This document shows, piece by piece, positions 1-22,486 of a DNA stretch of 64,000 nt. This DNA is from Lepiota brunneoincarnata (taxonomy: Eukaryota; Basidiomycota; Agaricomycetes; Agaricales; Agaricaceae), in contig JAEBUN010000019.1 of assembly GCA_023014365.1 (NCBI GenBank), positions 918,071 through 982,070 on the forward strand, read 5' to 3'. Numbering within the stretch: the stretch's first letter is position 1; each line of letters begins with the position of its first letter. Made by a program: the position numbers and the translations under genes. The notes under the pieces were generated by a model, which was given only the letters and a program-made list of their open reading frames with translations, was not told where the DNA came from and searched no databases.

Positions 1-1623
1 GGAGAACAGAAAACATACCACCTAGCCAAGAAAGAAGTATATTGGCCAGGAATGTTGACATTCATAAAGAACTATGTCAAAGGCTGTCCAGAGTGTCAGC
101 AACACAAAATCATATGCAGACCGGATCACATACCAACTCAACCAATCCCACCATCACCTTCCAGATGCCCATTTGCTCAAAATTTATGGGATCTTACCAC
201 CTAGTGCCAGTCATAATTGTAAGGGGACTGGTGTTGTATGCTCTGCGTCACGCTCCCCCTTATGCAAGGTACACCTAGGGATCTGCAGTTGGACGTCTGG
301 GCTTGGCCTTCCTAGCCAATGCCCGATGCCTGAGCCTGGTCTCGGCCTTCGGCCACCCCCATCCCCAAGCCCGATCCATGGGTGACTTCTTACTATTAGT
401 TGTTTGTTTATTGTTTGTGCACGTTATTACTGGTAGCTATTGTAGTGTTTGGTCATCTGGTCTGTGCGCAGACCACTATGTACATATATAGCGTGGGTGG
501 CAATTGTAAATCACCATCTGAATATCAACTTGGTTCTGGTGCTATATCCTCCCCTAATAATAATGCGATATTGTCCATGGTGGACCACAGCCTTACAAAG
601 GGGGTAATTTTCATCCCAACCTCAGATCAATCAAATGCCAATGACATTGGACAACTATTAATAGAAAAAGTCTTCACCAGATTCGGATTACCCGATAAAA
701 TCATATTAGATTGAGACCCAAGATTTGCTGCCAACTCCCTCCAAGAGCTAGCCAAATGCCTAAACATCCAACAAGCATGCTCAACCGCATACCATCCCCA
801 GACAGATGGTTCCACCAAACAATACAACCAAGAAATCGAGACCTACCTTGCCATATACTGCACCAGGAATCCCCTTGACTGGTCAGAAACCCTCCCTATC
901 ACCGAGTTCACACACAACTCCAAAATACATGCCTCAAGGCAGAAATCCCCATTTGAACTAATCATGGGATACAACCCTCCACCAATACCCACAGTAATGG
1001 AAACATCAAACTTTCCATCAGTAAATGAATGCATCAGACTTCTTGATGACACCAGAAAAGAAGCACACACGGCACATCAACTCTCCACCAACATTATGAA
1101 ACAAAGAACTAGAAAAACTGTCAAACCCCTTGAAACATGTCAAAAAGTATGGCTAGAAGCCAAGAACCTTAAACTTCCCTTCATCTCCAACAAAATATCC
1201 CCAAAAAGACTAGGACCCTTCCCCATCTCGGAAGTCCTATCACCACTCACATACAAACTAAAACTTCCAATCAAATGGAAGATACATCCAGTATTCCACT
1301 GAAACCTCTTAACCCCATACAATGAAACAGAAGCATACAGACCTCATCTGACACCACCGCCACCAGACATCATCAATGAAGAAGAAGAATACAAAATAGA
1401 AGCCATTCTAAACCACCGACAACACCACGGAAAACTCCAATACTATGTCAAATGGAAAGGATACTCCCACATGGAGAACAAATGGATCACCAATGAAACA
1501 CTCTGCACAAATACCAAAGAATATCTAACAGAATATAAAGAAGCTCATGGAATTCCCCAGAAAGAACAGGAACCCATCAAAACCTACCAAAGACAACTTC
1601 ATTCTCACACCAAACATACTTAA
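1..1623 (+). pseudogene. Ty3 integrase with C-terminal chromodomain (broken pol)
   Basis: Frame 1 at 1-200 reads a His/Cys integrase zinc finger ending in GCPECQQHK. The core follows after the inserted LTR: catalytic Asp in SMVDHS, Asp in IILD at about 706-711, and Glu in NQEIETYL near 838. The chromodomain is at about 1375-1530, with aromatic residues in YYVKWKGY. Two TGA stops interrupt the frame, at 712-714 (where the family normally has Arg in an SDRDP-like motif) and at 1300-1302. Both are what loss of a CGA codon by CpG decay would give. The 218-559 insertion and frame change make it non-functional. It would have inserted element DNA into chromosomes. Confidence 0.88.
218..559 (+). mobile_element. 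Solo LTR of the KH-element family
   Basis: This 342-base stretch matches the LTRs of the element at 13244-15200 along its length, beginning TGTAAGGGGACTGG and ending near CCCCTAATA (the expected terminal CA has become TA). It is flanked by the five-base direct repeat ATAAT at 213-217 and 560-564, which identifies it as a real insertion reduced to one LTR by recombination. It lies inside the integrase gene of the host Ty3 element. A TATA-like run (ACATATATAG) is kept near 481-490. It is more diverged than the two LTRs of the full copy, so it is the older insertion. Confidence 0.9.
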
Positions 1624-3426: not shown

Positions 3427-3918
3427 CCATCAGTGGTTCTCCCTATGTTTCACAATTGGAACCCATTTCCCAACTAGGTTATCCAATGTTTTGGCACCAT
3501 AATTGGGTTGGCTCCTTCCATTTTAGTCTCCTGGAGTTCCCTGAATCTCCTCCAGACATCTAAACTTTAGTGAATAAATCAGGCAGCCTTGTCCCTTCTC
3601 CAGGTGACCCCTCAGATTGTAAACCATCAATTTGCACTCTATTTTCCCTTGGTTTGTGGCTTCAGACAAATGTAGCTAGGAATATTTGTATACCCATGAT
3701 GTACCATTAATCATTAATTATCCCTCTGCCAATGGGTTGACATATTAGAGCCTTGGGTCATGTCCTAGGTATTTCCTTGCCTGGCCAGCAACTCAGGACT
3801 CATTCTGGCTCTCTTATTCCCTATAGCTAAGGGTTATTAAGAGTTTCTGCCTCAATTCCAAGGGTATAGGTCAAATAAATTCGATTTTTCAGGTATATTC
3901 AAAATTTTGGTGTATTAA
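3427..3918. other. No gene seen; repeat-derived spacer
   Basis: AT-rich sequence between an LTR and a truncated gag fragment. I see no open frame of note, no match to other parts of the window and no clear terminal repeats. It ends in GTATTAACA right where similarity to the gag at 12889 begins, so the right boundary may be the end of an unrecognised insertion. Confidence 0.4.
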
Positions 3919-5153
3919 CAGCACCCCCAGAAACACATTCCCCCAAAGGAACCAGTACCAACCAAATTGCAGACCAAATTGCCCCAACAACAATGTGCCA
4001 TATGCACAATTCTATCAAAGGAGTAACACTCCCAAATTTACACCACAAGACCCACATGCCATGGAAATAGACCATGTCTTAATGGAAGAAGGATATGAAG
4101 ATCCTTATTCCAAAATACCACAACTGGAATACACCAAAGAAGATCCCATCCAAGAATTATTAGAACTAGATGCTGTTGTCACCAGACAACAGATGAAAGC
4201 TTATCAGAAGCAAGAATGTTTCCAATGTGGAGCAAATGATTATTGGGTCAGCAAATACCCATACCCACCACCTACCAGACACCTCCCAGGAATGCATACC
4301 AATCTGCCACACCTGACCAGAAACCCAAATTGTCCCCCTTTCCAAGGAAATATGCCTAACCCTGCTTCAAATCCCAACAATGCAAGTATTCCCTTGCTGT
4401 TGCAGAAGTCACATCCCAAATGCACCAAATGGTGGATGAACTCAACCCCAAGTTACAACAGGAACTCCACTTTGCACTAGCTAAGGATCCGGAGATGTGT
4501 CCATTCCAGGATTTTTAAAATGGAATGCTGTCAATCGATGTGCCCCTGCACATTCCAGAATTCAGAAGGACTTTATGTACTCTCACTCCCAGAAGGACAA
4601 TTTCTTGATAAACTCTGTACAATTATGACTTTCCCCAAATAAACAATCCCTTTTCCTACCCATTGAGATTTGGAGTGAATGAACATCAAAACTCATGGCC
4701 ATCACTGCCCTAATTGACTCAGGAGCCCAAGGGAATTTCATTTCCCACAAAGTTGTTAAACAACATGGTTATCAAACCAAATGGCTGGACCAACCAATCC
4801 CTCTCAGCAACATTGATGGAACTGACAACCAACATGGCAAAATCCATGAATACATCAAAATCAAAACCATCATTGATGGAAGAGATTGCACACTAGAAGC
4901 ATATGTCACAAACACCAGTGAGAAAGACCTCATCATTGGATTTCCCTGGTTAGAACAATACAATCCTAACATCAACTGGAAAACCAAAACATTCTCTTGG
5001 AAATCCCAAATCAATCACCAAGACTTTTCCAAACTCCTCAGAACCCTACAACAACCTGTCAAACTCAACTCCATTGCCATGGACATAATGGCTGGAAAAA
5101 CCTCTCAACCCAAAGACAACCCAGAAGAATACATCAACCTTTCAAATGTTGAC
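3919..5153 (+). pseudogene. Truncated Ty3 gag C-terminus and protease fragment
   Basis: This segment parallels 12889-13243 plus 15206-16100 of the element at 10977, without the nested KH element. The gag tail (3995-4480) keeps a zinc knuckle that starts CFQCGAND, with Tyr where the sister copy has His. The protease frame (4695 on) has the DSGAQGNFIS active-site region and ends in IGFPWLEQYNP. It shows what the gag looked like before the KH element inserted. Similarity starts abruptly at 3919 and stops at about 5153, where a sequence starting TGTGAGAGAGG begins, so both ends are broken. It is a relic of the same family, not a working copy. Confidence 0.8.
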
Positions 5154-7588
5154 TGTGAGAGAGGAAATGTGCCTGTGCATGAAACTTGGCATATGCTCCC
5201 TTCTTACATTGTCCATCACTCCCAATGTGTTGTGACTCCCAAGGCATTGTTGATCCTGGTGGCACAATGCCCCCCTCCCTCTTTAGTGTAGTTCTTTTCC
5301 TTTGTAGTGGTAGTTACACATTTATTTTTCTTTGCAACATATTCTATCTTTTGTCGCTAATTGTCTAGGACTTGTAGTATAAAACAGGTGTGTGAGCACC
5401 TCTAGGAGGAAGTTTTTTGGGGGGGAGCCTTGCTCTCATTCTCTTGTTTTAAACAACCTCTCATTCTTTACCCTCTGTCATTACCCTATTCCTAATTTCA
5501 CTCCCTCTCATGTTCTTGCTCTTACGATGGACTTGAGGCCTTGTAACCATTTTGCCAGTTACACTTGTTTTTACTATTTTGTTGCAAACACTGAAAAGTG
5601 GATTACTTTATGAGATTGAAAATGAAGTTTGTTAACAGGTTTGCTAATTCTGACTTTATAAGTTTGTGAGGGAGAGGTTGTCACAGATCTCTAGAAATAT
5701 ATTCAATTCTAGTGTTTTTAGGGTCTTAGTAAGTTATTCTCTTAGTCTCCAACTAGACAGACAGTTGTCCTATCTGAATACAATGGGAACTTTGATGGTC
5801 ATTACTATATAATATGTTAACTAATGTCTTCACAATTTGATAAGTCAGGCAAAACACAAGCTTTTGCAATCAGTGAACCTCTGGAAACCTAGCGGACAAC
5901 ATGTTCTAATGGGCCCTAGCATACTACATCCTTTTCTCTTGACAAAACTATAAATTTACACTATCCAGCGAGACAGGCTTTTGACAAGCTCCTGCAGTAA
6001 GTGTCTTTAAGCTAGTAGGCCTAGCAGACAGTGTTATCTAATGGGCCCTAGTGCACTACAGCTTCTGAACAATGCAATAAAACTTTATACTACTCAGCGA
6101 GATAGGCTTCTTGTGAGCTCCTGCAGTAAGTATCTTTAAACTAGATAGACCTAGTGGACAGTGTTTTCAATGGGCCCTAGCATACTATGTTCACTTCTCA
6201 ATTAAACAGCTCTACAATTCAATGGTATACTTCTGAGGCAAGGCCTCTAAGAGGAACCCAAAGAAACGGAAGTTAGTGAACTTTCTACTTAAGAACAGAA
6301 GAGTTGTGGCAACTCATATTCAGTCCTTGAGTCAAGCAGAAGGGTCTATCAATATCTCAATCGTTTCAAAGGGTCTGGTTTTAAAGAGTATAACTTTTTA
6401 AATCTCTGGTGGTCTATGACCAAAGAAAATTGTGTAAAATTGCTTTAAATTCCTATCCTAATCGACCATACAATCAGAGGGGGGAAATAGGCAAGCAGTT
6501 TCTTGCCTCCCATGTAATTTACAGATGAGTTTTTATAACATTATACAATTGACTTATGGGTATACCTGAAACAAGCCTTCAGCTTCATCATTTTATTGTC
6601 TCCTCATCATTTAGGAGCATCATTCTATAAGTTCTGATATCAGCGACATAATTTGCTCTCAGGAACTTGCTCCCTAAGTGCCTGGTTATTTATATCACAG
6701 CCAGTTGGGTTAGCAAGTTTACTCACTTTTTATCTTTTTCTTGGATTCTCCACACCCGGGTTCTCAACCCTAATGTTCTAAAAGTTCTCTTCCATAGCCT
6801 TCAGGCAGTAAACTAATAGTAGAATTTAATTAGCTTGTTTCATTCTTATCAATCTTTATTTTCTAGTCCATCATTTCTGGTCTCTTTTGTTACTATGAGG
6901 GAGCATCCATCCCTGAGTACCCTCTTAGATACCCCCATCCAATCTTTTATCTTTCAATACCATCAGAGCTGTTTCAAGGGGACATTCTTGTCAGGGCATT
7001 AGCTAATCCCTACATTCTTTTGTCAAGATTCACTCCCAGACCTGTTATTATGACTAGGTACCATCCAGATGACATAGGTGTTGCGACTTGTCTGCTTTCT
7101 AGGGCAGAGGTGAAGAAATGGGTCTTTTGTGCAGTCATGAGTATCTTAACTAATATCTTAGTTAACATGGTATTGGATACAATGCTCAGGTACATTCATA
7201 CCAGAGTCATTCTTCCATAGCCTTATCACTAATAAGTTAGTTAACATCACTTTTACTTGTCTGGGTGTTCTGGTTCTGTTTCTGAGATGTCTGCCTTCAC
7301 ATATTTTAGATAGTATTCTAAGTCTCTCGCACCCAGTGTCTGACCATGGCCATGTACTGATATTATTTGGTAATGGAGAGTTAGTTACTTTATTAGCTAG
7401 TGATTTCACAAATGAAATGATTTTGCAGTGCAACAACGCAACTTTTTGTTCTATAACTGGAGCCCACCACAAGAGGCTTCTAGGTCTATCTATCCATCAA
7501 CATCACTCGCTTGCTCTCCCAGGAGCTCTTGCTTGCTGTCTGAGACCCAACCCTAGATCTGTCTGACACCTCTATTCCTCAGAACCTT
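5154..7588 (+). mobile_element. Probable LTR and leader of a second Ty3-type element
   Basis: The sequence starts TGTGAGAGAGG exactly where the gag/protease copy breaks off, has a TATA-like GTATAAAACAG near 5380, and a similar start (TTTGTGAGGGAGAGG) recurs near 5664. It contains a 130-base tandem repeat (5888-6200) and then about 1.4 kb without a credible gene, leading to a gag-like ORF at 7589. This order fits an LTR plus long leader, but I cannot fix the LTR ends or a target duplication. The short ORFs in it look like chance. Confidence 0.45.
5888..6200 (+). repeat. Direct tandem repeat, about 131-base unit, 2.4 copies
   Basis: Units start at 5888, 6020 and 6150, each opening with CCTAG(C/T)GGACA-like sequence and containing AATGGGCCCTAG. 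The first two also share CAGCGAGA(C/T)AGGCTT and GAGCTCCTGCAGTAAG-like stretches; the third is cut after about 50 bases. The copies differ by scattered substitutions and small gaps. Inside a retroelement leader such repeats may be regulatory or just replication slippage products; no function can be assigned. Confidence 0.75.
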
Positions 7589-8326
7589 ATGCCCTACTAT
7601 CCCTTTTCCAACTTGTCAACAGCATCTTCATTTTATATGGTATCTTGGCACACACCAGATTTGACAATGGCGTATTATGGAGCAAACTTTTACAATGATC
7701 AGCTCACTTGGGCCAGCACCCCAACAAGAAACCCTAACCCAAGCTGTGACCCAGCACCCCATTATGGTAATTATGCCCAGCCAGGTCCCCCAAGGCCTGG
7801 CTTTGTTCCTACGCAATGGGGCAATCCAGCAGATTCACCACCATTGTCCTCAATGGCACTACTATCAATAACTGCAAGCTCTGGATCATCTTCATCAACA
7901 ACAACCAGTTCCCCAGCAGGAAACCCCTTAGCACTGCAGGCTCCTCTGGCCTCTCAGCAGGCACCCCTGCCCCCACCACAGCTGCAGGTCTCTTGGATTC
8001 CTCAACAAGTGCCCTCTCAGGCTCCACAGCAGCCACCACCCCACTACTAGCCAGCAGCACCTGTCTAGCCCCAGCATATCTACCATCACTATCATGCCCC
8101 CCAGTCTAACTGACACATGCCAGCTCCTCATGACCATGGGACCCCCAAATTTGATAGCCAGCTGCTCTTGCTCATGTGGTTCTTCGACAAGATCAAAATC
8201 TTGGGTAACAATTGTGGTTTAACAGCTCACAAGCTGATTCAGCATAACCTCCATTATCTAGACAGTTGAGAATATGAGGTTTGGCAATCCTGCATTGCTA
8301 CTCAGGGCCATGACTGGGACCATTTC
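7589..8326 (+). pseudogene. Ty3-type gag 5' part, cut by a LINE insertion
   Basis: The first frame (7589-8050) encodes a Pro/Gln/Ser-rich leader protein containing WHTPDLTMAYYGANFYND, which I recognise as typical of gag starts in one basidiomycete Ty3 group. After a stop, another stretch (about 8150-8320) reads FFDKIKILGNNCGL and a tryptophan-containing helix, the usual capsid-like region of those gags, with a TAG-type interruption near 8268. The sequence ends at the T-run of the LINE at 8327, so the rest of the element is missing. It is a relic. Confidence 0.65.
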
Positions 8327-8404
8327 TTTTTTTTTTTTTTTTTTTTTTTAAATCAACAATTTATTTTGCAGGGCCTGTTAGCAGTCTGCACCAATGAGTA
8401 TCTA

Positions 8405-9790
8405 CTACATTGGATTAGCTAAAGAGATGGGGCCAGAGGCCCCATGTGATAAACTATGTATGGCTGCAAAGGGAGGGGGGGAAGGTGGCAGAGAGGGAGA
8501 AGAGGGTGGTTGGCTCACTCTGGAGGCAGGAATCCCTTGGGAAGCAGTAGGCTTTGGAGGAAAGGCAAAGGCAGCTGGGTTGTCTTGGAGAAATTGAACT
8601 AAGTCAGAGAGCAGCAGGGAAGTGTTGTGCTGAAGGTTGGACTTTGTCCTTGAGAAGTAGAGGCAGTCATAAAGGATGTGGTTCTGGGTCTCCAGGAGTT
8701 CACCACATTGGCATTGGACTGGTTCATCAGGGAAGAACTGCTGGTGGTATTTCCCAATAGGGGCATGGCTGGTAATACAGTGGGTGAGGTGAGCAGTGAG
8801 AGATGGTGGGTCCTTGGTGGTTAAGATGAGCCAAGTTCCATGGTGTAAGGATGATGGGGCAAAGGGCTTGTTGCTTTTATCAAAGATGGTGAGAAATTGG
8901 GAGCCATAGTATTTGGATGAGGCTGCAAAGTCCTTCTGCCACTCAGCAGATGCAGTAAGAGAAGCCTGAGCCTGCAGGAAGTCCAGTGTGGTTGGAGAAG
9001 CTGCAGAAGCAGGAAAGCGTGCAGATTTGGCCTCATGAGTGACTGAAGCCAAGGCAGGGAGCTGCCATGTGGAGGGGATTGAGACAAACTTGACTGTCTG
9101 GGAGGAAGAAGCTGCCAGCCAGGGGAATAAGGCCTTAATGACTGCCAGAGAGTGAGCCTGTCCAGAGTGGGGGAAGGGATCAAGGATGGTTTTACAAGAA
9201 GAAAAAGAAGAAGAAGAGATAAGGACAGTAATATCTGAAGCATTATCAACAAGAGAGAGAGAAGTACATAAACTAGAGTGCAAGGCAAATAAGGTAGCAC
9301 AGGATTGTTGACCCTGACCAGGGGAGAGAGATACACTAAAAATAGAGGAAGAAGAGAGGGTGATAGCAACTGAGGCTGATGTGCACAGCCCAGAATTGGG
9401 AAGGGGAGAGTGGGTAGAAATGAAAACTAAGGGAGAGAACTGGGAACAAGAGGAGGAGGAAATGATGGTGTCTACCCTACTGTGAAAGAGCTGAATCTCC
9501 ACAGGTGTGTGGGACCCAGGAGGAAGAGAGAGAAAGGAAAACCTATCTGAATATAAGTTAAGTAGGCGTTGGCCTGGTCTACCAACAGAAGGGAAAGAAA
9601 TCAGAGGGTCAGTGGCCTTGGCAGCCAACCTGTCAAAGTCCTGGAGAGCACCACCAGTCTGTCTGTGAATGCCTGGGGCAAGGAAGGGGATGATCAGTGG
9701 GTGCTTGACTGTGGAGGTAGAGCACCAATCCAGGAGGGAGTGAAGGGCATGAGTGTGGTGAAGCCTGCGAATGCAGAGGGCAGTTCTATC
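8405..9790 (-). pseudogene. LINE C-terminal region: RNase H-like and zinc cluster
   Basis: The long minus-strand frame 9628-8405 (407 residues) is in a different frame from the reverse transcriptase, so a frameshift lies near 9790-9800. The central part, rich in Ser and hydrophobic strands with acidic residues (SLVDNASD), is what remains of an RNase H domain. Further on, SHAPIGKYHQQFF and CQCGELLETQNHILYDC form the C-x-C-x8-H-x4-C cluster usual at the end of fungal LINE ORF2 proteins. The Pro/Ser-rich tail reaches to about 70 bases before the poly(A). Non-functional as a separate protein. Confidence 0.75.
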
Positions 9791-10940
9791 ACACAGTTTG
9801 CAAAGATGAAGGTGGAGGGGGGATAAGGCCAGCTAGTGCATTGACTCCCCCAACAGGAGAGGTCCTAAATGCACCTGTGATCCAGAGGCCAGCCTTGCAT
9901 TGAGCATGTCGGAGCTGAGAGAGGAGGCCCTTCACTTGGGCACCATGGAAGAACCATAAGGAAGAGCCATAAGTCATGATAGGGACTACACAGGAATGAT
10001 AGAGGAGATGCTTCTGGTCTGCAGTGAGGCCCCAGGCAGAGTTGCCAAGCATCCCCATAGCATGCACAGTAGTAAGGGCCTTGGTAGAATAGAACCATAC
10101 ATGGGCATTGAAGGATAGCCACCAGTCAAACCAGAAGCCCAGGTATTTCCAGACTGGTTTGGCAGTCAGAGGAGTGTCACCTGAGAAGAGAGCAAATCCA
10201 AGGTCTAAAGGAGCCACATCATTGTGGTGGCAGGAAAAGTGGAACACCTCTGTTTTGGAGTGCTCCAGAACTAAGCCAAGAGAGTCCATCAAGGAGTGAA
10301 TGACTGCATAAGCCTGGCAGAGAACAGCCAAGTTGTCAGCCCAGTCCTTGTGCTGCACAATAAGAAGGCCATCATCCACAAAAGAAAGAGCTGTAGCATT
10401 AATGTGGTCCATGGAGGAATGATGATCAAAGAGATGGAGGATGGGAGCCACAATAAGGGCAGAGAGGACAGGAGAGAGTGCAGAGCCCTGGCCTACACCC
10501 ACACTAGAAGGATACCACTCAGATTCAGCAGAGCCCCATACAAAGCATGTGCAGCATCCCACCAAATAAGACTGGAAGAAGGAGACAAGGGAAGCAGGAA
10601 AGCCCATAAGTCAAAGGATTTCCAGTAGAATCTCATGATTAATGGAGGGGAAGAACTGGGCAATGTCAAATGCCAGTACACTAGAGACAAGGCCCTTGGC
10701 CCAGCCAGCACAAACTACATGAGTGAGGAAGAGACCAGCATCTTCAGTGGACCTCTGGATGATGCCTCCCAGTTGATTGGAGTGGAAGATTCCATTAGAT
10801 ACAGCATCAAACTGCATGCAGCAGGCAATCATCTTCTCAATAAGCTTTCCTAGGGTATTAAGGAGGGCAATTGGGTGGAAAGACTTGGAAGTGGAGTAAG
10901 TCCTCACCCATGAAAAAACACTGGGGGATAATGCCCACAC
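9789..10940 (-). pseudogene. LINE reverse transcriptase domain, one stop
   Basis: Two minus frames in the same register (10940-10611 and 10607-9789) join across a single TGA at 10613-10611. Motifs are in the expected order: FHPIALLNTLGKLIEKMI (fingers), FDIAQFFPSINHEIL (motif A aspartate), GVGQGSALSPVLSALI (motif B), ALSFVDDGLLI (catalytic FVDD) and KPVWKYLGFWFD. The stop sits between EIL and LMGFP, where CGA (Arg) to TGA is the simplest origin. It would copy LINE RNA into DNA at the target nick. The N-terminal endonuclease is missing. Confidence 0.85.
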
Positions 10941-10976
10941 AGTCCTCTAGGAAGGACAGTGCTGTGGCCTGGTTAT

Positions 10977-11361
10977 TGTTATCAGAAGTCTTATCAGAAG
11001 GACAGTTATTTTTAGTTTACATTCCCATGTCACTATGAAAACATCAGTAGTGTACATCAGAAGGACTATTCTTAGTTTATGCCTCATGTCCCTTATCTCT
11101 GACTCATAGTTACTCTGGTCCGGACCATTATGGTAGGGGTACAGCCACACTTGGAAGTATATAAGGATATAGTACATTACCTTGTATCCTTATCTTAGTG
11201 TTATACAGTTCTTGCCTCCTATATCTCTTTGCCCTTAAACTGGCTGGACTATAGTACTCTGTTGTCTCCAAGTCACGCCTAGTAGGACAAGACCAAGTCT
11301 GTATAGCCATCTTGCCTTGAATGCCATGCTACTCAAGAGTGAACCCCTAACCTGGGTAACA
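10977..11361 (+). repeat. Ty3 5' LTR, family B (385 bp)
   Basis: TGTTATCAG to GGGTAACA. The TATA box AGTATATAAGG lies at about 11156-11166; TATCTTAGTGTT follows at 11191-11202, where transcription should begin. The reverse complement of exactly that segment (AACACTAAGATA) occurs at 11363-11374, one base past the LTR end. This is the layout used by Tf1/sushi-group elements, in which the RNA 5' end primes its own reverse transcription, and not a tRNA-type site. Confidence 0.85.
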
Positions 11362-11778
11362 AAACACTAAGATACTCTGCTGCTTATCTCTTGCTCACCC
11401 TCTACTCTACTCTGTCAACGTACTGAATGCATCAAGATACTCTGGTCATTCAAAACAATGTATGAAAGAAAACTGCCCCTCTGTGTAGCCATTACTACAT
11501 CCCTCAATCTCTCCCCACCAGAAGACCTGGCTTACCTACTCATTTTCATCTTTACCTCCACCACCACTCTCATCACATATCAAATAATCACCCTAGAACT
11601 TGAATGCATCATGTGCCCTTGCCACTGCTGTGTTGTCAGATTGTGGAGCTTGTACTCAGGAATCTCCATCATTGCAACCCAATTTTTCATTCTTCTAGCG
11701 GTAATCAACCGCTAGAAAACCATCACCACACCTCCCAAGAAGTTCTTGGCCTGAGAAACTCCATCACCTCCTCCTAAA

Positions 11779-13243
11779 TTGAGAAGTAGAATCTCCAGAT
11801 CAGGAACCCAAAATCCAGATCTCAGAAGAAATCCTATACCCACTCAAACACCATTGCCATTTTATTCCCCATCTCCATTTGACTCACCCACTCCATGTGC
11901 ATTTATATCCACATGCACTCAAACAAACTTTGCCAAAGAACTAGTGGAACAACAAAGATTACAACACAAAAAAGAATTAAAAGAATATTACAAACAAGAA
12001 GGAAAGGAATGCAAAGAAGCCAAAGAATATTGTGCTAAAGTAAACCCACTAAATGACTTTGAACTTCAAAAACTCAAATACACCCTCAAACAACCAAGAC
12101 AACTCTCCCAATCAGAAGAAGACCTATGTATGCATCACAAATATGCAGTAAATCAAGGAAAACCCCCCCCAGTAGACAACAACTCAGACATCTACATCAC
12201 TGACAACAACCAATCAGAACCTGACCCTCAACCACCCACATTACCCACACCAGTACAACCCTTAGCCCTACCAGCACCACTGCTGCCACCACCCGGACAA
12301 CTACAAATAACGGCCACTGCACAAAACCCAAAGGAGCTAGGACTCCTCAAACCCATCGCCTTTGATGGAACCAGAAGACTATTCAAAGACTGGATCTTCC
12401 AATGTGAAGTTTATGTACTCACTAACATGACCACTTACAACAACAACCTTGCCAGAACCCTATTTGTCTTATCAACAATGCAATCAGGAGATGCCCAAGC
12501 CTGGGCCAGACAATACCTCCATGAGAGGAACACCCAAACCCAAGCAGGACAACCCATAACAATGGAGTCATGGGACAACTTCACTGCCTGGCTTAGAGCC
12601 AACTTCACCCTGGCAGATGAACATGCATATGCATATACCAGACTCCAAACCCTGCACCAAGCAGGCAAACCAATGACTGAATTCAACGCTCAGTTTAAAG
12701 AACTTGTCCATCAATCTGGACTTAACAAAGATTGCACCCTGATTGATCTCTATCGCAAAGCAATCGATCGCCATATTGCAATGAAGATCAATGAATTGGA
12801 GAACCCTCTGACAACCATCACCGCTTGGTATACCCAAGCCAACAAACTTGATGATAACTTCTACAGAATCAATGCCCTCTATGGCACCCCCAGGAACACA
12901 TTCCCTCAGAGGAACCAATATCAACCTAACTGCAGACCAAGCCATCCAGACAACAATGTGCCCTATGCACAATTTTACCAAAGGAGCAATGCTCCCAGAT
13001 TCATGCCATGCAACCCACATACCATGGAAATAGACCATGCTGCAATGGAAGAAGGATTTGAAGACCCTTATCCTGAAATTCCACAACCAGAATATGCTGA
13101 AGAAGACTCCGCACAAGAACCATTGGAGTTAGATGCTGTTGTCACCAGACAACAAATGAAATTATATCAGAACCAAGAATGCTTCTGATGTGGAGCTAAA
13201 GACCATTGGGTCAGTAAATGCCCACAACCACCACCAACCAGAT
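11779..13243 (+). pseudogene. Ty3 gag (retrotransposon gag), interrupted
   Basis: A 469-residue frame runs to a TGA at 13186-13188. It has a charged Lys/Glu-rich helix (residues 50-115), a Pro-rich linker, and the Retrotrans_gag capsid region starting about residue 190 with FKDWIFQCEVYV and AWARQYLHER, ending before NTFPQRNQ. The zinc knuckle CF*CGAKDHWVSKC continues past the stop, so the stop removes the nucleic-acid-binding end. The sister copy at 3995 has CAA at this codon. Gag then continues at 15206-15462 beyond the nested KH element, ending in TAA. It would form the virus-like particle shell. Confidence 0.85.
13239..13243. repeat. Target-site duplication CAGAT, left copy
   Basis: CAGAT stands directly before the 5' LTR at 13244 and again directly after the 3' LTR at 15201-15205. 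Removing one copy and the element between them restores the gag reading seen in the sister fragment near 4275. This fixes both ends of the nested element. Confidence 0.95.
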
Positions 13244-13582
13244 TGTAAGGGGACTGGCGTCGTGTGCTTTGCATTGCGCCCCCCCTTACGCAAGGTACTT
13301 CTAGGGACCTGTGGTTGGACATCCGGGCTCGGCCTTCTTAGCCGATGCCTGATGCCCGAGCCCGGTCTCGGCCTTTGGCCACCCCCATCCCCAAGCCCGA
13401 TCTGCGGGCGACTTCTATTATTAGTTGCTTGTTTATTGTTTGCGTACGTTATTACTGGTAGCTATCGTAGTGTCTGGTTACCCGGTCTGTGCGCAGACCA
13501 CTATGTATATATATAGCGTGGGTGGCGATTGTAATCGCCACCTGAATATCAACTTGGTTCCGGTGCCTTACTTCCCCTAACA
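13244..13582 (+). repeat. 5' LTR of the KH element
   Basis: TGTAAGGGGACTGG to CCCCTAACA, 339 bases. The start is GC-rich with repeated GGC/CCG stretches. A TATATATATA box at 13506-13515 is followed by ACCTGAATAT at 13540-13549, the expected RNA start. An inverted repeat GGCGATTGTAATCGCC lies between them (13524-13539). Sites where it differs from the 3' LTR are all CpG-related. Confidence 0.92.
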
Positions 13583-13661
13583 GAATATTCAGGTCTCTAC
13601 GCGGACTTGCCACCCTAGCTCTCTGCACCCCATCTACCCTGTCCCCAGCCCTATCGCCAGT

Positions 13662-14813
13662 ATGCCTCACCGAAAGTCCTCAGGCAAGCAGAAAGCGACT
13701 GCGCCCACACTACCGACCACAGCCCCTGCCTCGGCAGGACCCTCGTGTTCAGGTGAGGACACTCAGGCCTTATTGGCCCGGATCGGCGAGCTTAACCGCT
13801 CGATCGGTTTGCTCTCGTCCCGCCTGCGCACCCTCGAGGAACGTCCCTCGATGGCTGCCGCCGGTCCTTCTCCAGCCGTCATTCAAACGGCCACTACCCG
13901 AAAGGGTCGCTCGCAGGTTTCTGCCGGCGCCCCACGCACTCCTAACCGCCCAGGCCCCACTCGCCCCTCGGTAAAAGGCACATCTACCGCCCTCCCGCTC
14001 TCGGCCTACTACCCGCAGGAAGACCAGGCCGATCACTATCAGACCACTCTCATCATCGCCGACGGCTTGAGTGGTCACGTGATTGGTCGCGGCGGCCGCG
14101 GCCTTAAACAGGTCGCAGACATTAGCGGCGCTCACCTCCGTGTCTATTCAGTGGCCACGGATGGTGCCGACGAGCGCCATGTCTCTATTAGGGGGACCGA
14201 GCAGCAACTCGGTGATGCCCTTGTGGTATTAGGTAAGCGGATTGCGCGCAAACGCGTCCATCTTCCCAAGACAAAGAAGGAGAAGACCACAGCGGTTTCC
14301 GGCCCCGCCTTGGCGGCCCCTGGACCGTCTGCTCCTGGAGCAGCCCAGGCTCCTGCTCCGGCCCGTACGGACCCCGTTGCCCCCGGCTCTGCCACCCCAG
14401 TCCCAGACTGGGCGCATCTGGGTGTGCGGTCCTCCTCGCAGGCCTCTTCAGTCGCACCCACTCCCCCTCACATCGCTACCCCGGCCGGCGTCCCGTCGAC
14501 AACTATGCGTACGGCTGCATCTACTCCTACCCCTACCCGTTCACCCGTGGTTTCTCGGCAACCGTCGCGCGGCTCCCCTATGCCCATCTCTACCCCCTCT
14601 GGCACGTCTACTCCCGGAGTCCCATCAGTCCGAATGGGAAGTGCCACCCCTACCCCGGCCTTGACCCCGATGGAGGTCAACAGTGTCCTCTCAACCTGGG
14701 GCCGGGAGGTTATGCCTACTGCCCCTGCCGACCGTCTTGATATGGCCCATTCCCTTGTGGTGGATGGGTCTGTCATTCGGCTAGCGGATGGCCGTTGGGC
14801 TCGCGCTTTTTAG
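13662..14813 (+). CDS. KH-domain protein of the LTR element (possible Gag substitute)
   Basis: An intact 383-residue frame, the only gene of the element. Residues 33-60 are a likely coiled coil with leucines at heptad spacing (LLARIGELNRSIGLLSSRL). A KH type-I RNA-binding domain spans about 125-195: TTLIIADGLSGHVIGRGGRG has the GxxG loop (G142-R-G-G145) flanked by the Ile/Val typical of the fold, followed by SGAHLRVYS and the final helix DALVVLGKRIA. A basic run (KRIARKRVHLPKTKK) follows, then a long Pro/Ser/Thr-rich linker, and an acidic/hydrophobic tail ending RLADGRWARAF. KH domains bind single-stranded RNA; the coiled coil could oligomerise. I infer a packaging or Gag-like role, not proven. 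Codon use is GC-rich, unlike the surrounding repeats. It has no CCHC knuckle. Confidence 0.85.
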   Translation: MPHRKSSGKQKATAPTLPTTAPASAGPSCSGEDTQALLARIGELNRSIGLLSSRLRTLEERPSMAAAGPSPAVIQTATTRKGRSQVSAGAPRTPNRPGPTRPSVKGTSTALPLSAYYPQEDQADHYQTTLIIADGLSGHVIGRGGRGLKQVADISGAHLRVYSVATDGADERHVSIRGTEQQLGDALVVLGKRIARKRVHLPKTKKEKTTAVSGPALAAPGPSAPGAAQAPAPARTDPVAPGSATPVPDWAHLGVRSSSQASSVAPTPPHIATPAGVPSTTMRTAASTPTPTRSPVVSRQPSRGSPMPISTPSGTSTPGVPSVRMGSATPTPALTPMEVNSVLSTWGREVMPTAPADRLDMAHSLVVDGSVIRLADGRWARAF

Positions 14814-14861
14814 GACAAAGGAACCAAGTCGCCAGGTCATCGACTCTTAAGAGGGGGCTGG

Positions 14862-15200
14862 TGTAAGGGGACTGGCGTCGTGTGCTTTGCATTGCGCCCC
14901 CCCTTACGCAAGGTACTTCTAGGGACCTGTGGTTGGACGTCCGGGCTCGGCCTTCTTAGCCGATGCCCGATGCCCAAGCCCGGTCTCGGCCTTCGGCCAC
15001 CCCCATCCCCGAGCCCGATCTGCGGGCGACTTCTATTATTAGTTGCTTGTTTATTGTTTGCGTACGTTATTACTGGTAGCTATCATAGTGTCTGGTTACC
15101 CGGTCTGTGCGCAGACCACTATGTATATATATAGCGTGGGTGGCGATTGTAATCGCCACCTGAATATCAACTTGGTTCCGGTGCCTTACTTCCCCTAACA
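14862..15200 (+). repeat. 3' LTR of the KH element
   Basis: 339 bases, same length and ends as the 5' LTR; preceded by the tract AAGAGGGGGCTGG and followed by the duplicated CAGAT. Six differences from the 5' LTR were counted, each a C/T or G/A change at a CpG. Four of the changed states are in the 5' LTR and two in this one, so decay has hit both. Confidence 0.92.
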
Positions 15201-15205
15201 CAGAT

Positions 15206-16365
15206 GCTTCCCAGGTATGTGCACCAGTCCCCCTCGCCCTGCGAGAAACCCCAACTGTCCTTTTCCTGGACAACAAAACACTTGTCCCAGATTTCTGAAT
15301 CAGAACAACCAATCATCACCCCAACACAAATACTCCCTTGCTGTTGCAGAAGTTGCATCTCAAATGTGCCAGATGGTCGATGAACTCAATCCCAAATTAC
15401 AACAAGAACTCCACTCTGCACTAGCCGAGGATCCAGAGATGCATCCATCCCAGGATTTTTAAAAAGGAACACTGTTGATCAATGTGCCCCTGCATGTTCT
15501 GGAACTCAGAAGAACTTTTCTTACTCTCACTCCCAGAAGGACATTTTCTTGATAAACTCTGTACAATTACAACTATCCCTGAATAAACAATCCCTTTTCC
15601 TACCCATTGAGATTTGGAGTGAACGGACATCAAAACCTGTGGCCATCACCACCCTGATAGACTCAGGAGCTCAAGGGAACTTCATCTCCCACAAAATCAT
15701 TGAATGACATGGTTATCAAACCAAATGGCTGGACCAACCAATTCCTCTCAGCAACATTGACAGAACTGACAATCAACATGGCAAGATCCATGAATACATC
15801 AAAATCAGAACCATCATTGATGGAAAAGATTGCACACTGGAAGCGTACATCACAAACACTGGTGAGAAAGATCTCATCATTGGATTTCCCTGGTTGGAAC
15901 AATACAATCCTGACATCAATTGGAAAACCAAGACATTCTCTTGGAAACCTCAAATCAATCACCAAGACTTTTCCAAACTCCTCAGAACTCTACAACAACC
16001 TGTCAAACTCAACTCCATTGCCATGGACATAATGGCTGGAAAAACCTCTCAACCTGAGGACAACCCAGAAGAATACATCAACCTTTCAAACATTGACCTT
16101 GACACCTTCTCTTTAGAAAGAGAAATGAACCCAATGCTTCTAACCCCACTAGAAGTAAACGCCAAAGCCACACATGCCACAACACTCCACAATGAGCGAC
16201 ACAACCCGACAAAATTGGCAAACCAAAAAGGAAAACAACCGGAATCAAACAAAGAACCATCCGAAATCCCTTAAAGATTTGCCCAATGGGCTAAAATATT
16301 CAACAAGAAAGCCTCTGAACGATTCCCACCATCAAGAACATTTGATCATGAAATTGAACTAAAAC
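15206..16365 (+). pseudogene. Ty3 gag tail, protease and start of pol
   Basis: After the nested element, gag resumes (GCFPGMCTSP) and ends with TAA at 15460-15462. From 15639 the protease reads TLIDSGAQGNFISHKII, with the catalytic DSG, then a TGA at 15704-15706 where the fragment at 4695 has CAA, then NIDRTDNQHGKIHEYIKI and IGFPWLEQYNPDINWKTK. Downstream linker reaches WAKIFNKKASERFPPSRTFD at about 16290-16350, the usual entry into reverse transcriptase, which is lost at 16366 to an inverted LTR. Aspartic protease would cut Gag-Pol; this copy cannot. Confidence 0.82.
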
Positions 16366-16749
16366 TGTTACCTGGGTTAGGGGTTTGCTCTTGAGTAGCA
16401 CGGAGTTTGACACAGGATGTCTATACAGACTTGGTCCTGTCCTACTAAGCGTGACTTGGAGATGATGGAGCACTATAAGTCCAGCCAGTTATGGCAAAGA
16501 GGTATAGGAGGCAAGAACTTTATAACACTAAGATAAGGATACAAGGTGATGTACTGTATCCTTATATACTTCTAAGTGTGGCTATACTCCTACTATAATA
16601 GTCCAGACCAGAATAACTACAAGTCAGAGATAAGGAACATGAGGCATAAACTAAGAATAGTCCTTCTGATGTACACTACTGATTGTTTCATAGTGACATG
16701 GGAATGTAGACTAAAAATAACTGTCCTTCTGATTAGATTTCTGATAACA
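16366..16749 (-). repeat. Ty3 LTR, family B, inverted (384 bp)
   Basis: Reverse complement of the family B LTR: on the plus strand it starts TGTTACCTGGG and ends CTGATAACA. It cuts the pol start of the plus-strand element on its left and lies next to a different Ty3 family's protease on its right. Flanking five-base sequences (AAAAC and ACCTC) do not match and no primer site follows it, so this is a solo or recombined LTR at a rearranged junction. Confidence 0.85.
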
Positions 16750-17690
16750 ACCTCAACACTTTACCTTCAAGTGCAGGTAGTGGAAAATGCTTCCTATGAG
16801 GTTTTACTTGGCTGTCCCTTCCTTACACTGACTAAAGCAGTCACACACCACTACCCCAATAGTGGTTTGAGCATCACACTCACTGACCCAAACACTCATT
16901 CAGTCATTACTCTTCCTACCTGACCTCACATCTGCCCCTTGCCTACTGGCCTGGTTTTTTTTAGCATCAATGATTTGGCACTTTGTCAAGGAGATACAGC
17001 ATTATCAACAATTCCTGTCATATACTTTCCATCTCAATCACTCCCCCCTCATGTTATATGATCTCCCCTCTCGTGTTCACATCTGCACCTTTCAAACCTA
17101 TACACAAGATTAAAGATATATTCAAAATTTGTCTTACTGAAATAGAGCCTGATAATAATATCCTGCCAGATGTGTATAACCTTGCCTACAAAAAGGTTGC
17201 TAATTGAGTCAAGCCTGTCACTACAACTCTACCCAAGGACTTCCAAATAGTCCAATAAGTCCCCTCCAATCCCCTGGCCTTCCTGCCAATGCTGCCTACC
17301 CATCCACCCAATTTCTCACCTGGCAAACAATATACAAATGAGTGAAAGGATGCTATGCAGGTAAACAAGGATGACTTCTTATAGCCTGACAAGGAGAGGC
17401 TTGTTCACCATCTTATCAAGCTTCAAGAGCTTGCATTTGCATGGAATGACTCTGAAAAAGGGACATTTTCATCCAACTACTTTGATCCTATTGTAATTCT
17501 GACAATCGAGCATATCCTCTGGGCTCTCAAGAATATCCCCATTCCCCCCTTTCTGGTAGCTCAATTTGCAATTTTTTCATTCTCTTCAAAATTCTAGTCC
17601 TTTCGACTTCATTCAACAAAAGCAGCTTTCTCCAGGGTTCAGACAAGGTTATATTCTAACTTCTTCTCCCAAAAATTGGCCATCAATTTT
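16750..17690 (+). pseudogene. Decayed pol fragment of another Ty3 family
   Basis: Readable pieces in changing frames: a retropepsin-type end (VVENASYEVLLGCPFLTLTK, then ITLTDPNTHSVITLPT) to about 16920; YKKVAN*VKPVTTTLPKDFQIV at about 17185-17255; then HHLIKLQELAFAWDDSEKG-like and a stretch resembling IEHIPWALKNIPIPPG at 17400-17560. These are consecutive blocks of the region between protease and reverse transcriptase in a common basidiomycete Ty3 group. Many stops and frame changes show long decay. Confidence 0.65.
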
Positions 17691-18524: not shown

Positions 18525-19222
18525 TGTTATGATCCGTGCTCCTTCTGTATCCGAGGATAACTGGAGACGGCCTTCAATCACTCTACAAGGTGTCCGAGAC
18601 GGTTGGCCTTATAGAGCTTAGTGGATCGTGCTCAATGAGATAACGAGGGAAGACGCCAAGTTAAGGCAGAGAGGTAAACGACCGCTGTTAACAAGATTAA
18701 AGCTTAAGGCTTTAATCTCTACTTGTACAGGCCTTATATACCTATGAGGTGCTATATACTCATTATAGGTTACTTGGCTGTTCTACTGGTCGTGCGCAGT
18801 CCTGTCCATGATGCACATCCTGGCTGATGGCATCCTAGTGTTATTTATATTACAATGAGTCAGTACTCTTGCTACTGCTGTGCGATGTTCCATCGCTTTC
18901 CTCTGACTCATAATCTTCTTCTCCCGATTGTATCTCCATGGAGTCCTCTCCGTTCTCGCTCTCCATTCTCTCAGTGCTTCCATCCGTGTCGGAGGTTGGG
19001 TCGGTTGATCCATGGTTATCTTCCTCGTCCTTGGGGTATTCCAATATATCCTCCAAGGTTATCTCCATTCCTGCTTCTCTTGCCAGGTCCTGCATGGCGG
19101 TGTAATATTCCCCTTCCTCGTCTTCGTATTCTTGTGCCCGTAATTGGTCTGTAGTCTCCTGTACCCATCTTGTAAAGTCGAACAATAATTCTTGTTCCTC
19201 CCGGTCTGGACTGTTCATAACA
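18525..19222 (-). repeat. Solo LTR, family D, copy 1 (698 bp)
   Basis: Ends TGTTATGA...TCATAACA, flanked by TGTTA at 18520-18524 and 19223-19227. It is read on the minus strand, because a TATA box (GTATATAAGG) lies two thirds along in that direction (about 18740-18730), which fits U3-R-U5 order. The U3 carries a 122-codon acidic frame at 19218-18850. It inserted into the Tc1 transposase gene. Confidence 0.88.
18850..19218 (-). CDS. Acidic ORF end encoded in LTR U3 (copy 1)
   Basis: 122 codons from ATG four bases inside the LTR: MNSPDREEQELLFDFTRWVQ, then a very acidic Ser/Glu/Asp tail. The same frame is intact in the second LTR copy (22482-22114) with only four residue changes. In the fragment near 24.8 kb the frame continues upstream, out of the LTR, through a purine tract. 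So this is probably the C-terminal tail of an internal gene that reads into the 3' LTR, and the ATG here may be only an internal Met. In a solo LTR it has no evident function. Confidence 0.5.
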   Translation of the reverse strand: MNSPDREEQELLFDFTRWVQETTDQLRAQEYEDEEGEYYTAMQDLAREAGMEITLEDILEYPKDEEDNHGSTDPTSDTDGSTERMESENGEDSMEIQSGEEDYESEESDGTSHSSSKSTDSL

Positions 19223-21379
19223 TGTTATGCTATCAAACTTATTGCCTCCCAAAAAGTTGATAATGCTGTCCAGGTCACTAAATCACTTCAAAATATGACC
19301 CAGCAATCTCTCTCTACCAGCACAGTTCACAGGGTGCTCAAGAGAGCTGGAATGAAAGCTGTAGTCAAGGTGAAACAACCTTTTCTCAGCACCACTCACC
19401 AGCAGAAGAGGATGGAGTGGGCAGAAGCACATGCCAACTGGACTCTGGAAGACTGGAAGAGGGTAGTTTGGTCAGATGAGACCAAAATCAATCATTTGGG
19501 GTCAGATGAGAGGCATTGGGTTTGGAAAAGGGGGTCAGAGAAGTTAAAAGCTAGGCTGGTAGATGGAACTAGGAAGTTTGAAGGAGGTTCCATCATGGTC
19601 TGGGGCTGTATGTTGTGGGAAGGGGGGGGATTCCCATGCAGAATTGAAGGGAAGATGGATGCTGACCTTTATGTCAGCATTTTGGAGGATGAACTGCAGC
19701 AGAGCCTTGGGTGGTACAAGAAAAGACAAGGGAAATTGTCTTTCAGCAAGACAATAAGCCCAAAAACAAGAGCTGGACAGCTACAAAGTGGTTTAAAAAA
19801 GCTAAAATGGAGGTTATGGTATGGCCCCCACAGTCTCCTGACCTCAACCCTATTGAATACCTATGGACTTATATCAAAAGGAGGCTGAAGAAGTATGATA
19901 CTCCTCTTAGGAGAATATTGGAGTTGTGGGAGAGGACAGAGGCAGAGTGGAATAAGATTCCACCTTCAGTATGTCAGAATTTGATTGAAAGTATGTCTAG
20001 GAGGGTTCAGGCCATTTTGCAGGCTGGAGGAGGCTATACCAAGTATTGAATACCTATAATTGTATATTGTGTTTAATAAGCTGCAAAACCCTTCCAATGC
20101 ACTGAAAATATTGTTTAATTCACCACATTCCAAAAAGGGAATTTTATGTAATCATAGCTATACCAATCTGTAGATAAGATATAGGAGTATATATATTTAA
20201 AATATGAAGTCCCTAGCTTTAGTATCTCTAGAGCTATTCAAAAAATAACTGAAAGTAAAAAAACATTGGAAGGGTTTTGATGCCTACTATATGTATGTAT
20301 ATTAATGTGTAACATTATAGCCACAATTCACACATCCCTGATGAGCTCACACTCTCCCACTTTATGAGCACCACCCATATTAGTACCATCTCCTATATTT
20401 TTTTTGGCCATTCTCTCAAATTATTGGAACTACTTGAAATGAGTAAAGGATATATCACTGAGATTGTGTCCTTTATTACTTGCATTTGCTAGAAAAATAT
20501 TCCTAACCTGTCAACATGATCATTGATTCATCCCCACCACATTTATCTCCTTATTCAGGACTCATACTACAAGATGTTGCAACCACCTTCAAAACCAACA
20601 TTCTGCCTAATTTGGTCAAGTTGTTTACAACAACACTTGTATAGTCAAATGTAGCAATAGCTAATCTCTTTTTTTCTTATTCTACATCCCCTTATACTCC
20701 AATTTTTTATCTCCTGAACATTGTTGCACATCCCTTTCTGTTTATGAAACTGTGATAAATGTATTCAGAAATGCTACTAAACTATAGTTTTACTAATATT
20801 AAACTAGCTCAAACAACACAACTCATGTATAAATGCAAGTGGCACTTAGTCTATATATTGCTGACTGGTAAGTAGATCACTCAATTTTTGGTACTATCCA
20901 AGCTCCAAACCAGTTTTTAAACAGTGGAAAGCAACACCTAGCACTTTGTGCACCACATTCCCCAATACAGGTAGATTAATGTTATAGCTTCTACCCATTA
21001 TCACTATGCACACCCAATACCAGTCTATTTCCCATAAATTCAAACTTACTTCCAATATATGATCTTATACAATATCAAGCAATGCATCCCCAATAAATAT
21101 CCTTGCTACCATTGACCATGTCATCTTTGCAAGTTTTAAGTCCTTTGTATCCAAGCTTATATAAAAGGACCTCCTTGTCTGCATTGTCATTGATGAAGCT
21201 CATCTAATCCTTACACATGTATCAAGGGAACTACCCCTGATAGTAGGTTACTCTATTCTAAGTGATCACTCATTGACCTCAGTTTTGTTGGCTGCTTTGG
21301 GGTTCTCTGAGCATTATCTAGTCTAGGCACTTTTAGGAGTTATGGTCTAGGATACCTTAGACCTTACCTTGACACCCTC

Positions 21380-21585
21380 ATCTCTTTCATCACCATATAT
21401 ATATGTATATTCTATTCTTGTATATTGTTTATTGTTACTTGTACAATATCATCTAGCTACTGTAGTCATAGTTACAATGGCCTGGTCTGTGCACAAACCA
21501 TTATGTATAAATATGTAGTGCAAGTAAGGATTACAATCCCCACTCAAATATTATTTGGGTTTCAGGCCTGTACACTTTCTTAACA
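21380..21585 (+). repeat. Degraded LTR end of the KH-element family
   Basis: From TTGTTTATTGTTACTTGTAC through CCTGGTCTGTGCACAAACC to TTTCTTAACA this follows the last 200 bases of the KH-element LTR in order, including the TATA region (TATGTATAAATATG). The first part of the LTR is not recognisable. It lies within the helicase relic and is much older than the other copies. Confidence 0.7.
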
Positions 21586-21788
21586 ATATGCCTCTTTTCA
21601 GCTGGTAATGAGCCTCCTCTGGTGGCTGATATCCTTTCCAATCCAAATTATTACCATGACCACCACACTTCCCCTTACACTTGAATATGAACTATTTAGT
21701 ATAATTGGTATGATGTCAGCAATCACCATTAGGACTCCCACACTGAGGCCAAATATCTCATTTCAGGTCATATGTGTAATAAGCTCTC

Positions 21789-22486
21789 TGTTATGATCCG
21801 TGCTCCTTCTGTATCCGAGGATAACTGGAGACGGCCTTCAATCACTCTACAAGGTGTCCGAGACGGTTGGCCTTATAGAGCTTAGTGGATCGCGCTCAAT
21901 GAGATAACGAGGGAAGACGCCAAGTTAAGGCAGAGAGGTAAACGACCGCTGTTAACAAGATTAAAGCTTGAGGCTTTAATCTCTACTTGTACAGGCCTTA
22001 TATACCTATGAGGTGCTATATACTCGTTATAGGTTACTTGGCTGTTCTACTGGTCGTGCGCAGTCCTGACCATGATGCACATCCTGGCTGATGGCATCCT
22101 AGCGTTATTTATATTACAATGAGTCAGTACTCTCGCTACTGCTGTGCGATGTTCCATCGCTTTCCTCTGACTCATAATCTTCTTCTCCCGATTGTATCTC
22201 CATGGAGTCTTCTTCGTTCTCGTTCTCCATTCTCTCGGTGCTTCCATCCGTATCGGAGGTTGGGTCAGTTGATCCATGGTTATCTTCCTCGTCCTCGGGG
22301 TATTCCAATATATCCTCCAAGGTTATCTCCATTCCTGCTTCTCTTGCCAGGTCCTGCATGGCGGTATAATATTCCCCTTCCTCGTCTTCGTATTCTTGTG
22401 CCCGTAATTGGTCTGTAGTCTCCTGTACCCATCTTGTAAAGTCGAACAATAATTCTTGTTCCTCCCGGTCTGGACTGTTCATAACA
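21789..22486 (-). repeat. Solo LTR, family D, copy 2 (698 bp)
   Basis: Same length and ends as copy 1, flanked by CTCTC at 21784-21788 and 22487-22491. I count about 14 differences from copy 1, of which about half are CpG changes and only one is a transversion. It inserted into the helicase relic. The 122-codon frame (22482-22114) is intact. Confidence 0.88.
22114..22482 (-). CDS. Acidic ORF end encoded in LTR U3 (copy 2)
   Basis: Equivalent of the copy 1 frame at 19218-18850, 122 codons, differing by Glu/Lys, Asn/Ser, Glu/Gly and Glu/Lys exchanges in the acidic half. Only the first third (FDFTRWVQETTDQLRAQ) looks folded, a possible amphipathic helix. Its preservation reflects recent spread of the LTR rather than selection on this copy. 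Confidence 0.5.
   Translation of the reverse strand: MNSPDREEQELLFDFTRWVQETTDQLRAQEYEDEEGEYYTAMQDLAREAGMEITLEDILEYPEDEEDNHGSTDPTSDTDGSTERMENENEEDSMEIQSGEEDYESEESDGTSHSSSESTDSL

Follow-up and report, generated by a model that had tools for sequence, protein, structure and literature searches.

We analysed a 64,000-nucleotide stretch of a contig of the basidiomycete Lepiota brunneoincarnata (JAEBUN010000019.1, positions 918,071 to 982,070; hereafter the window, whose own positions are used below). At 13244–15200 the window carries a short LTR element coding for a protein with a KH domain. The features of this KH element, together with a solo LTR of the same family, are as follows.

13239..13243, no strand: target-site duplication CAGAT, left copy, adjoining the 5' LTR and supported by the empty-site alignment
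13244..13582, + strand: 5' LTR, TGTAAGGGGAC...CCCCTAACA, 339 bp
13506..13516, + strand: predicted TATA-like box, seen in the sequence and also in most of the 30 best copies
13540..13549, + strand: self-primer ACCTGAATAT, the predicted RNA 5' end
13585..13594, + strand: primer-binding site ATATTCAGGT, complement of 13540–13549
13662..14813, + strand: ORF of the KH protein, 383 aa, the longest of the element
13752..13841, + strand: N-terminal helix of the structure model, residues 31–60 (a coiled coil by inference)
14001..14258, + strand: KH domain, type I, residues 114–199, with a GRGG loop, from Pfam and fold
14667..14681, + strand: PMEVN, residues 336–340, resembling the chromovirus Gag motif PM[DE][IVL]D (N for D)
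14667..14804, + strand: C-terminal mini-domain of the structure model, residues 336–381, without a named fold
14849..14861, + strand: polypurine tract AAGAGGGGGCTGG, purine-rich and directly 5' of the 3' LTR
14862..15200, + strand: 3' LTR, 339 bp
15201..15205, no strand: target-site duplication CAGAT, right copy, adjoining the 3' LTR
218..559, + strand: solo LTR of the KH-element family, 86%, with ATAAT at either side

The two LTRs are identical at 333 of 339 positions (6 mismatches) and enclose an interior of 1279 bp, which makes 1957 bp in total. With direct LTRs, a 5-bp duplication, a primer site and a polypurine tract, the element has the structure of an LTR retrotransposon. It inserted into the gag part of a decayed Ty3 element, whose ORF at 11779–13188 matches Retrotrans_gag (Pfam). 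The two flanks, joined through a single CAGAT, align without gaps over 330 nt and at 86–87% identity to L036 and L040, which are uninterrupted copies of the Ty3 family that the KH element hit. Because the joined flanks align gap-free to uninterrupted Ty3 copies, the KH element is a real insertion and its boundaries are certain. The delimitation given in a preliminary description of this DNA (339-base LTRs, CAGAT duplication, purine tract) proved to be exact; of the two or more further LTR copies which that description counted in the window, we found one, the solo LTR at 218–559, besides the pair itself.

The insertion is surrounded, at 3029–16750, by the nested remains of a single Ty3 family, among them the copy hit by the KH element; a second decayed copy of this family lies at about 3900–5150. 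Further along, at 18525–22486, two paired LTRs of about 698 bp (98%; TGTTATGATCC...CATAACA) enclose no more than about 2.6 kb; a self-primer was looked for in this pair and none was found. At 30226–34531 lie three tandem copies of a gene-like unit, the product of which has a signal-like start and a 10-residue stretch that presumably resembles class I hydrophobins; a Pfam search with one such hydrophobin-like fragment gave no match.

We examined the KH protein by family, fold and structure searches. Pfam matched KH_1 to residues 129–187 (E 2.6e-8, above the curated cut-off), no other family matched the 383-aa ORF up to E 1, and no capsid-like domain was found by Pfam. The structure model was confident only in parts (mean pLDDT 66.8, pTM 0.35), namely in the helix at residues 31–60, the KH domain at 114–199 and the mini-domain at about 336–381. 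The Pfam score, the fold and the GxxG loop all assign the KH domain to type I; its nearest solved relative, by sequence and by predicted fold, is KH3 of hnRNP K, followed by other hnRNP K, Nova, PCBP and FUBP KH domains. Searched against a library of viral folds, the protein gave weak matches only (best E 3.6e-4, TM-scores under 0.2), and no named fold was found for the C-terminal mini-domain. The single intact ORF, the KH domain with its GxxG loop and the lack of pol are thus as first described, while the coiled coil claimed in the same place stands as a modelled helix from which a coiled coil is deduced.

We compared the domain with KH genes of the host at four hnRNP-type places, which were chosen from a longer match list; the best host domain scored 29.7 bits (L042). 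The element protein has the type I KH fold and GxxG loop of host proteins of the hnRNP K and PCBP type, and a host gene of this kind may be the source of its KH domain. However, the host genes L042, L043 and L044 carry several KH stretches, whereas the element protein has one, followed by a conserved block of its own.

To find further copies we searched the genome (55.6 Mb, 95 contigs) in six frames with the KH protein. The search gave at least 107 matches in at least 78 loci, both counts being lower bounds. We examined 38 copies, the 30 best loci and 8 lower-scoring ones, with L031 and L034–L037 excluded; the sample was ranked by KH match, which favours good copies. An intact frame of 383–387 aa was present in 25 of the 30 best loci; among the lower-scoring loci L046 was intact (398 aa) and the other seven were truncated or broken, so that 26 of the 38 copies have an intact KH ORF. 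Perfect 5-bp duplications were identified by script in 26 of the 30 best loci, or in 27 with L022, where the flanks were read by eye; an LTR end is missing in L006, L015 and L019. LTR pairs are identical in L005 (100%) and least alike in L027 (about 81%, with gaps). The KH frame was kept in 21 of 22 copies whose LTRs are at least 97% alike (L015, with 68 bp comparable, excluded), the exception being L049, in which the LTRs are 97.2% identical and the frame is broken. The KH family is multi-copy, with young intact copies.

Two main subfamilies were distinguished, A (the window type) and B (about 81–85% protein identity to the window), with L024 and L029 further out. In one copy, L025, the LTRs are of type A (97%), but the KH region that they enclose is only 80–84% like that of the window. 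Two other loci, L035 and L037, encode proteins only 36–37% identical to the KH protein of the window; at positions 1–2501 of each there is a second KH family with a self-primer pair of its own and with both KH frames damaged. The contigs of these two loci, C53 and C59, may be two haplotypes of one region.

We analysed selection on the KH frame in intact copies only (25 of the 30 loci). Between young A and young B copies the mean dN was 0.0845 and the mean dS 0.272, a dN/dS of 0.31 in frame, against 1.22 and 1.39 when the same alignment was read in the other two frames; the KH part alone gave 0.23. Fisher tests gave p about 1e-10 for two single A–B pairs and 2e-9 to 8e-6 for three pairs that include L024 or L029. 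Within the subfamilies dN/dS was 0.51–0.57, as it should be when copies drift once inserted. The contrast was weaker against L024 (A group, 0.45 in frame, 0.90 and 0.86 out of frame), with 0.96 in the coiled-coil part and 0.85 in the linker at 206–330; between A and B the C-terminus evolves fast (0.81). Purifying selection acts on the KH frame. The preliminary description had staked its reading on several copies with intact ORFs, on dN/dS below 1 between them and on conservation of the KH frame among copies, and the family bears this out: 26 of the 38 copies examined are intact, and the frame is conserved (dN/dS 0.31, compared with 1.22 and 1.39 out of frame). A chance ORF is ruled out by the intact copies together with the frame-specific dN/dS.

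We searched for pol between the same LTRs with patterns for the ends of the interior and with the LTR. The primer-site pattern (up to 3 mismatches) matched the genome at 56 places, 54 of which have KH within 300 bp; the two exceptions are KH copies split by complete nested Ty3 elements (L031; L032–L034). The pattern made of the tract plus U3 gave 59 matches, 57 with KH within 300 bp, the exceptions being C32:273349, where KH lies at a distance of 511 bp, and C56:69254, which has 3 mismatches and no KH. Both patterns derive from the KH family, and an autonomous element with other sites would escape them. The LTR search, in which 40 of 411 candidates were scored and 42 matches obtained, found nine LTR pairs at element spacing, every one of them flanking KH; the remainder were three single LTRs beside KH and others that are partnerless among the matches listed. 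RT or integrase between the LTRs of KH elements, which the preliminary description had named as the outcome that would make this copy a mere deletion, was found nowhere by the genome patterns or among the 40 of 411 LTR candidates scored, apart from nested Ty3 insertions. KH-less short copies of the family were not seen in the primer-site, tract or LTR searches. L031 and L032–L034, with KH far from the primer site, were considered as an autonomous version in the genome and rejected, being split by complete Ty3 elements.

Priming of reverse transcription was analysed next to the 5' LTR. The primer site ATATTCAGGT (13585–13594), the ten bases after LTR+2, is the exact complement of ACCTGAATAT (13540–13549), which starts 34 nt after the start of the TATA-like box. 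All ten positions pair in 28 of the 29 copies that have both sites, and they do so in three forms: ACCTGAATAT/ATATTCAGGT in 8 copies, ACCCAAATAT/ATATTTGGGT in 19 and ATCTGAATAT/ATATTCAGAT in 1. L028 is a hybrid of a B-type RNA start and an A-type primer site, with 8 of 10 positions paired. A fourth form, ACTTGATTAT/ATAATCAAGT, occurs in the 36%-identical KH family. Because the copies are related, the four forms, and not the 28 copies, are the independent evidence. Changes in the primer site are matched by changes in its pairing partner in the LTR, and RNA folding of three KH leaders placed the self-primer and the primer site in one stem. Two hybrids, L028 and L025, point to template switching among packaged RNAs, with different subfamilies meeting in one particle.

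In tRNA-primed elements the sequence after the LTR begins with TGG. Priming by tRNA was rejected for the KH element, where the sequence 3' of the LTR has no initial TGG and pairs with the LTR instead. Its primer site is, as in Tf1, complementary to the RNA 5' end, here a predicted one, and we strongly infer from this complementarity that reverse transcription is primed by the 5' end, folded back onto the primer site. The same relation between the primer site and the element's own RNA 5' end is described for the Ty3 elements Tf1/Tf2, Tj1 and Tcn1 (PMC4600332, PMC7175516), which are self-primed like the KH element but autonomous, whereas the KH element has no polymerase.

A candidate source of the enzymes is the chromodomain Ty3 element inside L032. 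It has a 453-bp LTR pair (100%) and open gag and pol frames; Gag contains Retrotrans_gag and a zinc knuckle, and pol contains protease, RT, RNase H, integrase, a Tf2-1-like SH3 and a chromodomain. Its LTR begins with TGTAAGGGGAC and ends with CCCTAACA; these tips match those of the KH element at all 11 and 8 bp, and the rest of the LTR is unrelated. As in the KH element, the primer site starts 2 nt past the LTR, and ten bases of it pair within the element's own LTR. The two elements thus have in common the LTR tips, the 5-bp duplication, a G-rich tract, self-priming and the 2-nt offset; in contrast, the chromovirus has both gag and pol, the KH element has neither, and beyond the tips their LTRs are unrelated. 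In a search with the L032 LTR (40 of 234 candidates scored) all copies were 97–100% alike, with at least 12 pairs about 5.7 kb apart, and the family is young because its LTR copies are so alike.

We compared these LTR tips with those of the other Ty3 elements at hand. The other two Ty3 families with a clear LTR start begin with TGTTATCAGAA (L036, which also self-pairs) and TGTCATATCC (L031), while L041, a decayed relative of the L032 Ty3, also has TGTAAGGGGAC; no LTR pair was found in the stretches examined of L038–L040. A G-run followed by TGTAAGGGGAC within 10 bases was matched 58 times, with many overlapping readings and mostly in the helper type, and the reversed control of this pattern gave no match. 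Downstream of pol, L036 (8053–9321) and L038 (6771–7995) have long open frames, some with several CxxC-type zinc motifs, which are either extra genes or chance frames.

Protease, RT and integrase are probably supplied to the KH element in trans by a chromodomain Ty3 family of the same genome. The LTR tips in common with the L032 chromovirus are what a satellite of it would share, their recognition by the integrase being putative. Against L032 as the helper, the tips are the only DNA it has in common with the KH element; LTR homology is described as unnecessary for trans-mobilisation (PMC10886601). A helper other than the L032 family is possible, as the comparison covered few Ty3 families.

We collected relatives of the KH protein from databases: 45 at E up to 1e-3 and, by profile, 132 at E up to 1e-4, of which the best 120 were kept. 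They occur in Agaricales, with Phlegmacium glaucopus and Termitomyces among those named, and in many environmental sequences; the named relatives point to an agaric or close kin as the host. In an alignment of 46 members, which comprises the protein of the window plus the first set of 45 relatives but not the further profile matches, KH_1 was found in all 46 and no other Pfam family in any. The KH domain and the block that follows form the conserved core; beyond them come a P/S/T-rich linker, a short motif and an RG-rich tail or another end. By simple count the RG-rich tail is present in 51 of 92 KH proteins, and the other ends include the mini-domain of the window protein. A search for relatives with their flanks confirmed none of 45 pattern matches in viral_contigs and none of 60 in genome_contigs.

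The short motif was compared with the Gag family of the proposed helper. PM[DE][IVL]D occurs in 117 of 120 Gags of this family (120 of 408 found), and it ends 10–12 residues before the zinc knuckle in the 114 Gags in which the knuckle was also matched. In the KH proteins the pattern [PAST]M[DEQ][IVL][DN], chosen after seeing the sequences, occurs in 56 of 92 (those of at least 280 aa out of 123), mostly as PMQVD and PMQID; in shuffled controls the values were 1.17 (Gag) and 0.2 (KH). Only 18 of the 92 have the stricter form of the Gags, M[DE][IVL]D. Among the four local Gags, those of L036 and L038 have a like motif and that of L031 lacks it. A comparison of the KH and Gag profiles picked the motif stretch without reaching significance (probability 2.3%), and no Gag profile matched the KH proteins significantly. 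The five residues may be a Gag-derived junction, a docking motif or a coincidence, and we regard them as a lead.

We consider it somewhat better than an even bet that the KH element is a non-autonomous, self-primed LTR satellite, in which a selected KH protein does Gag-like RNA handling and a helper provides the enzymes. Its RNA would start at R and fold back to prime reverse transcription, and chromovirus enzymes would copy it and integrate the cDNA by recognising the common LTR tips. The KH protein would oligomerise through its N-terminal helix, use the KH domain and the basic stretch that follows to bind its own element RNA, and bring this RNA to or into the helper particle, perhaps by way of the Gag-like PM[DEQ][IVL]D segment; as an RNA adaptor it would resemble Gag but lack a capsid domain. 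We are less certain of oligomerisation, RNA binding and placement in the particle. Replacement of Gag by KH fits because the LTR tips of the helper match, because of the Gag-like motif and because many relatives have an RG-rich tail. More tentatively, and with a little less than even confidence, we suggest an old lineage of KH-based Gag mimics, widespread in mushroom-forming fungi, with the helix, KH in place of the capsid, the junction motif, and a basic or RG tail in place of the zinc knuckle. In such a mimic the junction motif would possibly be a helper protease site or a docking site, and the protein would direct self-primed RNA into chromovirus particles.

The main rival is that the KH protein acts outside the particle, in export, stability, translation or escape from silencing of the intronless element RNA, with all packaging left to the helper Gag. 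The KH domains closest to it are of the hnRNP K and PCBP type, found in host proteins with roles in the export, stability and translation of RNA; host KH proteins reportedly act on retroviral RNA as well, and the protein has no capsid domain, all of which favours such a role. We nevertheless consider it rather unlikely, since the Gag-like motif and the RG-rich tails, although compatible with it, would be unexpected from it alone. A further possibility is that a captured host KH gene is a passenger, or a gene with an effect on the host, and that the element moves by its RNA signals alone. TRIM and Helenus LTR elements are described as moving without genes (PMC10886601), and the host KH genes, best at 29.7 bits, are weak but real relatives. 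This reading is improbable: selection between subfamilies is purifying, each of the nine LTR pairs found (40 of 411 candidates scored) encloses KH, 54 of 56 primer sites have KH next to them, and no KH-less short copies were seen.

It is very improbable that the KH element arose long ago by deletion from an autonomous element with KH plus pol. One fungal genome was searched whole, and some contigs of the relatives, 5–16 kb or longer, could hold such an element; in the genome searched, however, the copies with paired LTRs carry KH alone. The element is not a recent deletion, because subfamilies at 70–85% protein identity keep the short layout.

To our knowledge, a non-autonomous LTR element either is empty, has retained a Gag or has arisen from a parent by deletion. 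We found no description of a KH-bearing LTR element in the literature searched, a partial set with few subscription papers. Plant TR-GAG elements (for example AT5TE33540) have LTRs, a single Gag ORF and no pol, and are thought to move with the enzymes of an autonomous relative (PMC8704663). The KH element likewise has LTRs, one ORF and no pol; in contrast to TR-GAG, which resembles its autonomous parent, it has only the LTR tips in common with its proposed helper, and its ORF is not a Gag, KH_1 being the only family in 46 of 46 members. It works like a satellite retrotransposon, yet it is not a TR-GAG. TRIM, SMART and Helenus elements are described as small, with a primer site and a polypurine tract, mobilised in trans and without protein, and the primer sites of Helenus as matching tRNAs (PMC10886601). 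The KH element is similarly small and has both priming signals. It differs by self-priming and by its selected 383-aa ORF in 1957 bp, whereas a TRIM is under about 1 kb and codes for no protein.

A selected, non-Gag RNA-binding protein as the sole cargo would be another way to parasitise a retrotransposon, and the KH family makes the choice of element RNA for packaging testable. Self-priming has been kept, by changes at both sides, in an element without a polymerase of its own. The finding further suggests that, among fungal and environmental sequences, many KH proteins that are unannotated and called 'hypothetical' may belong to mobile elements rather than to the host.
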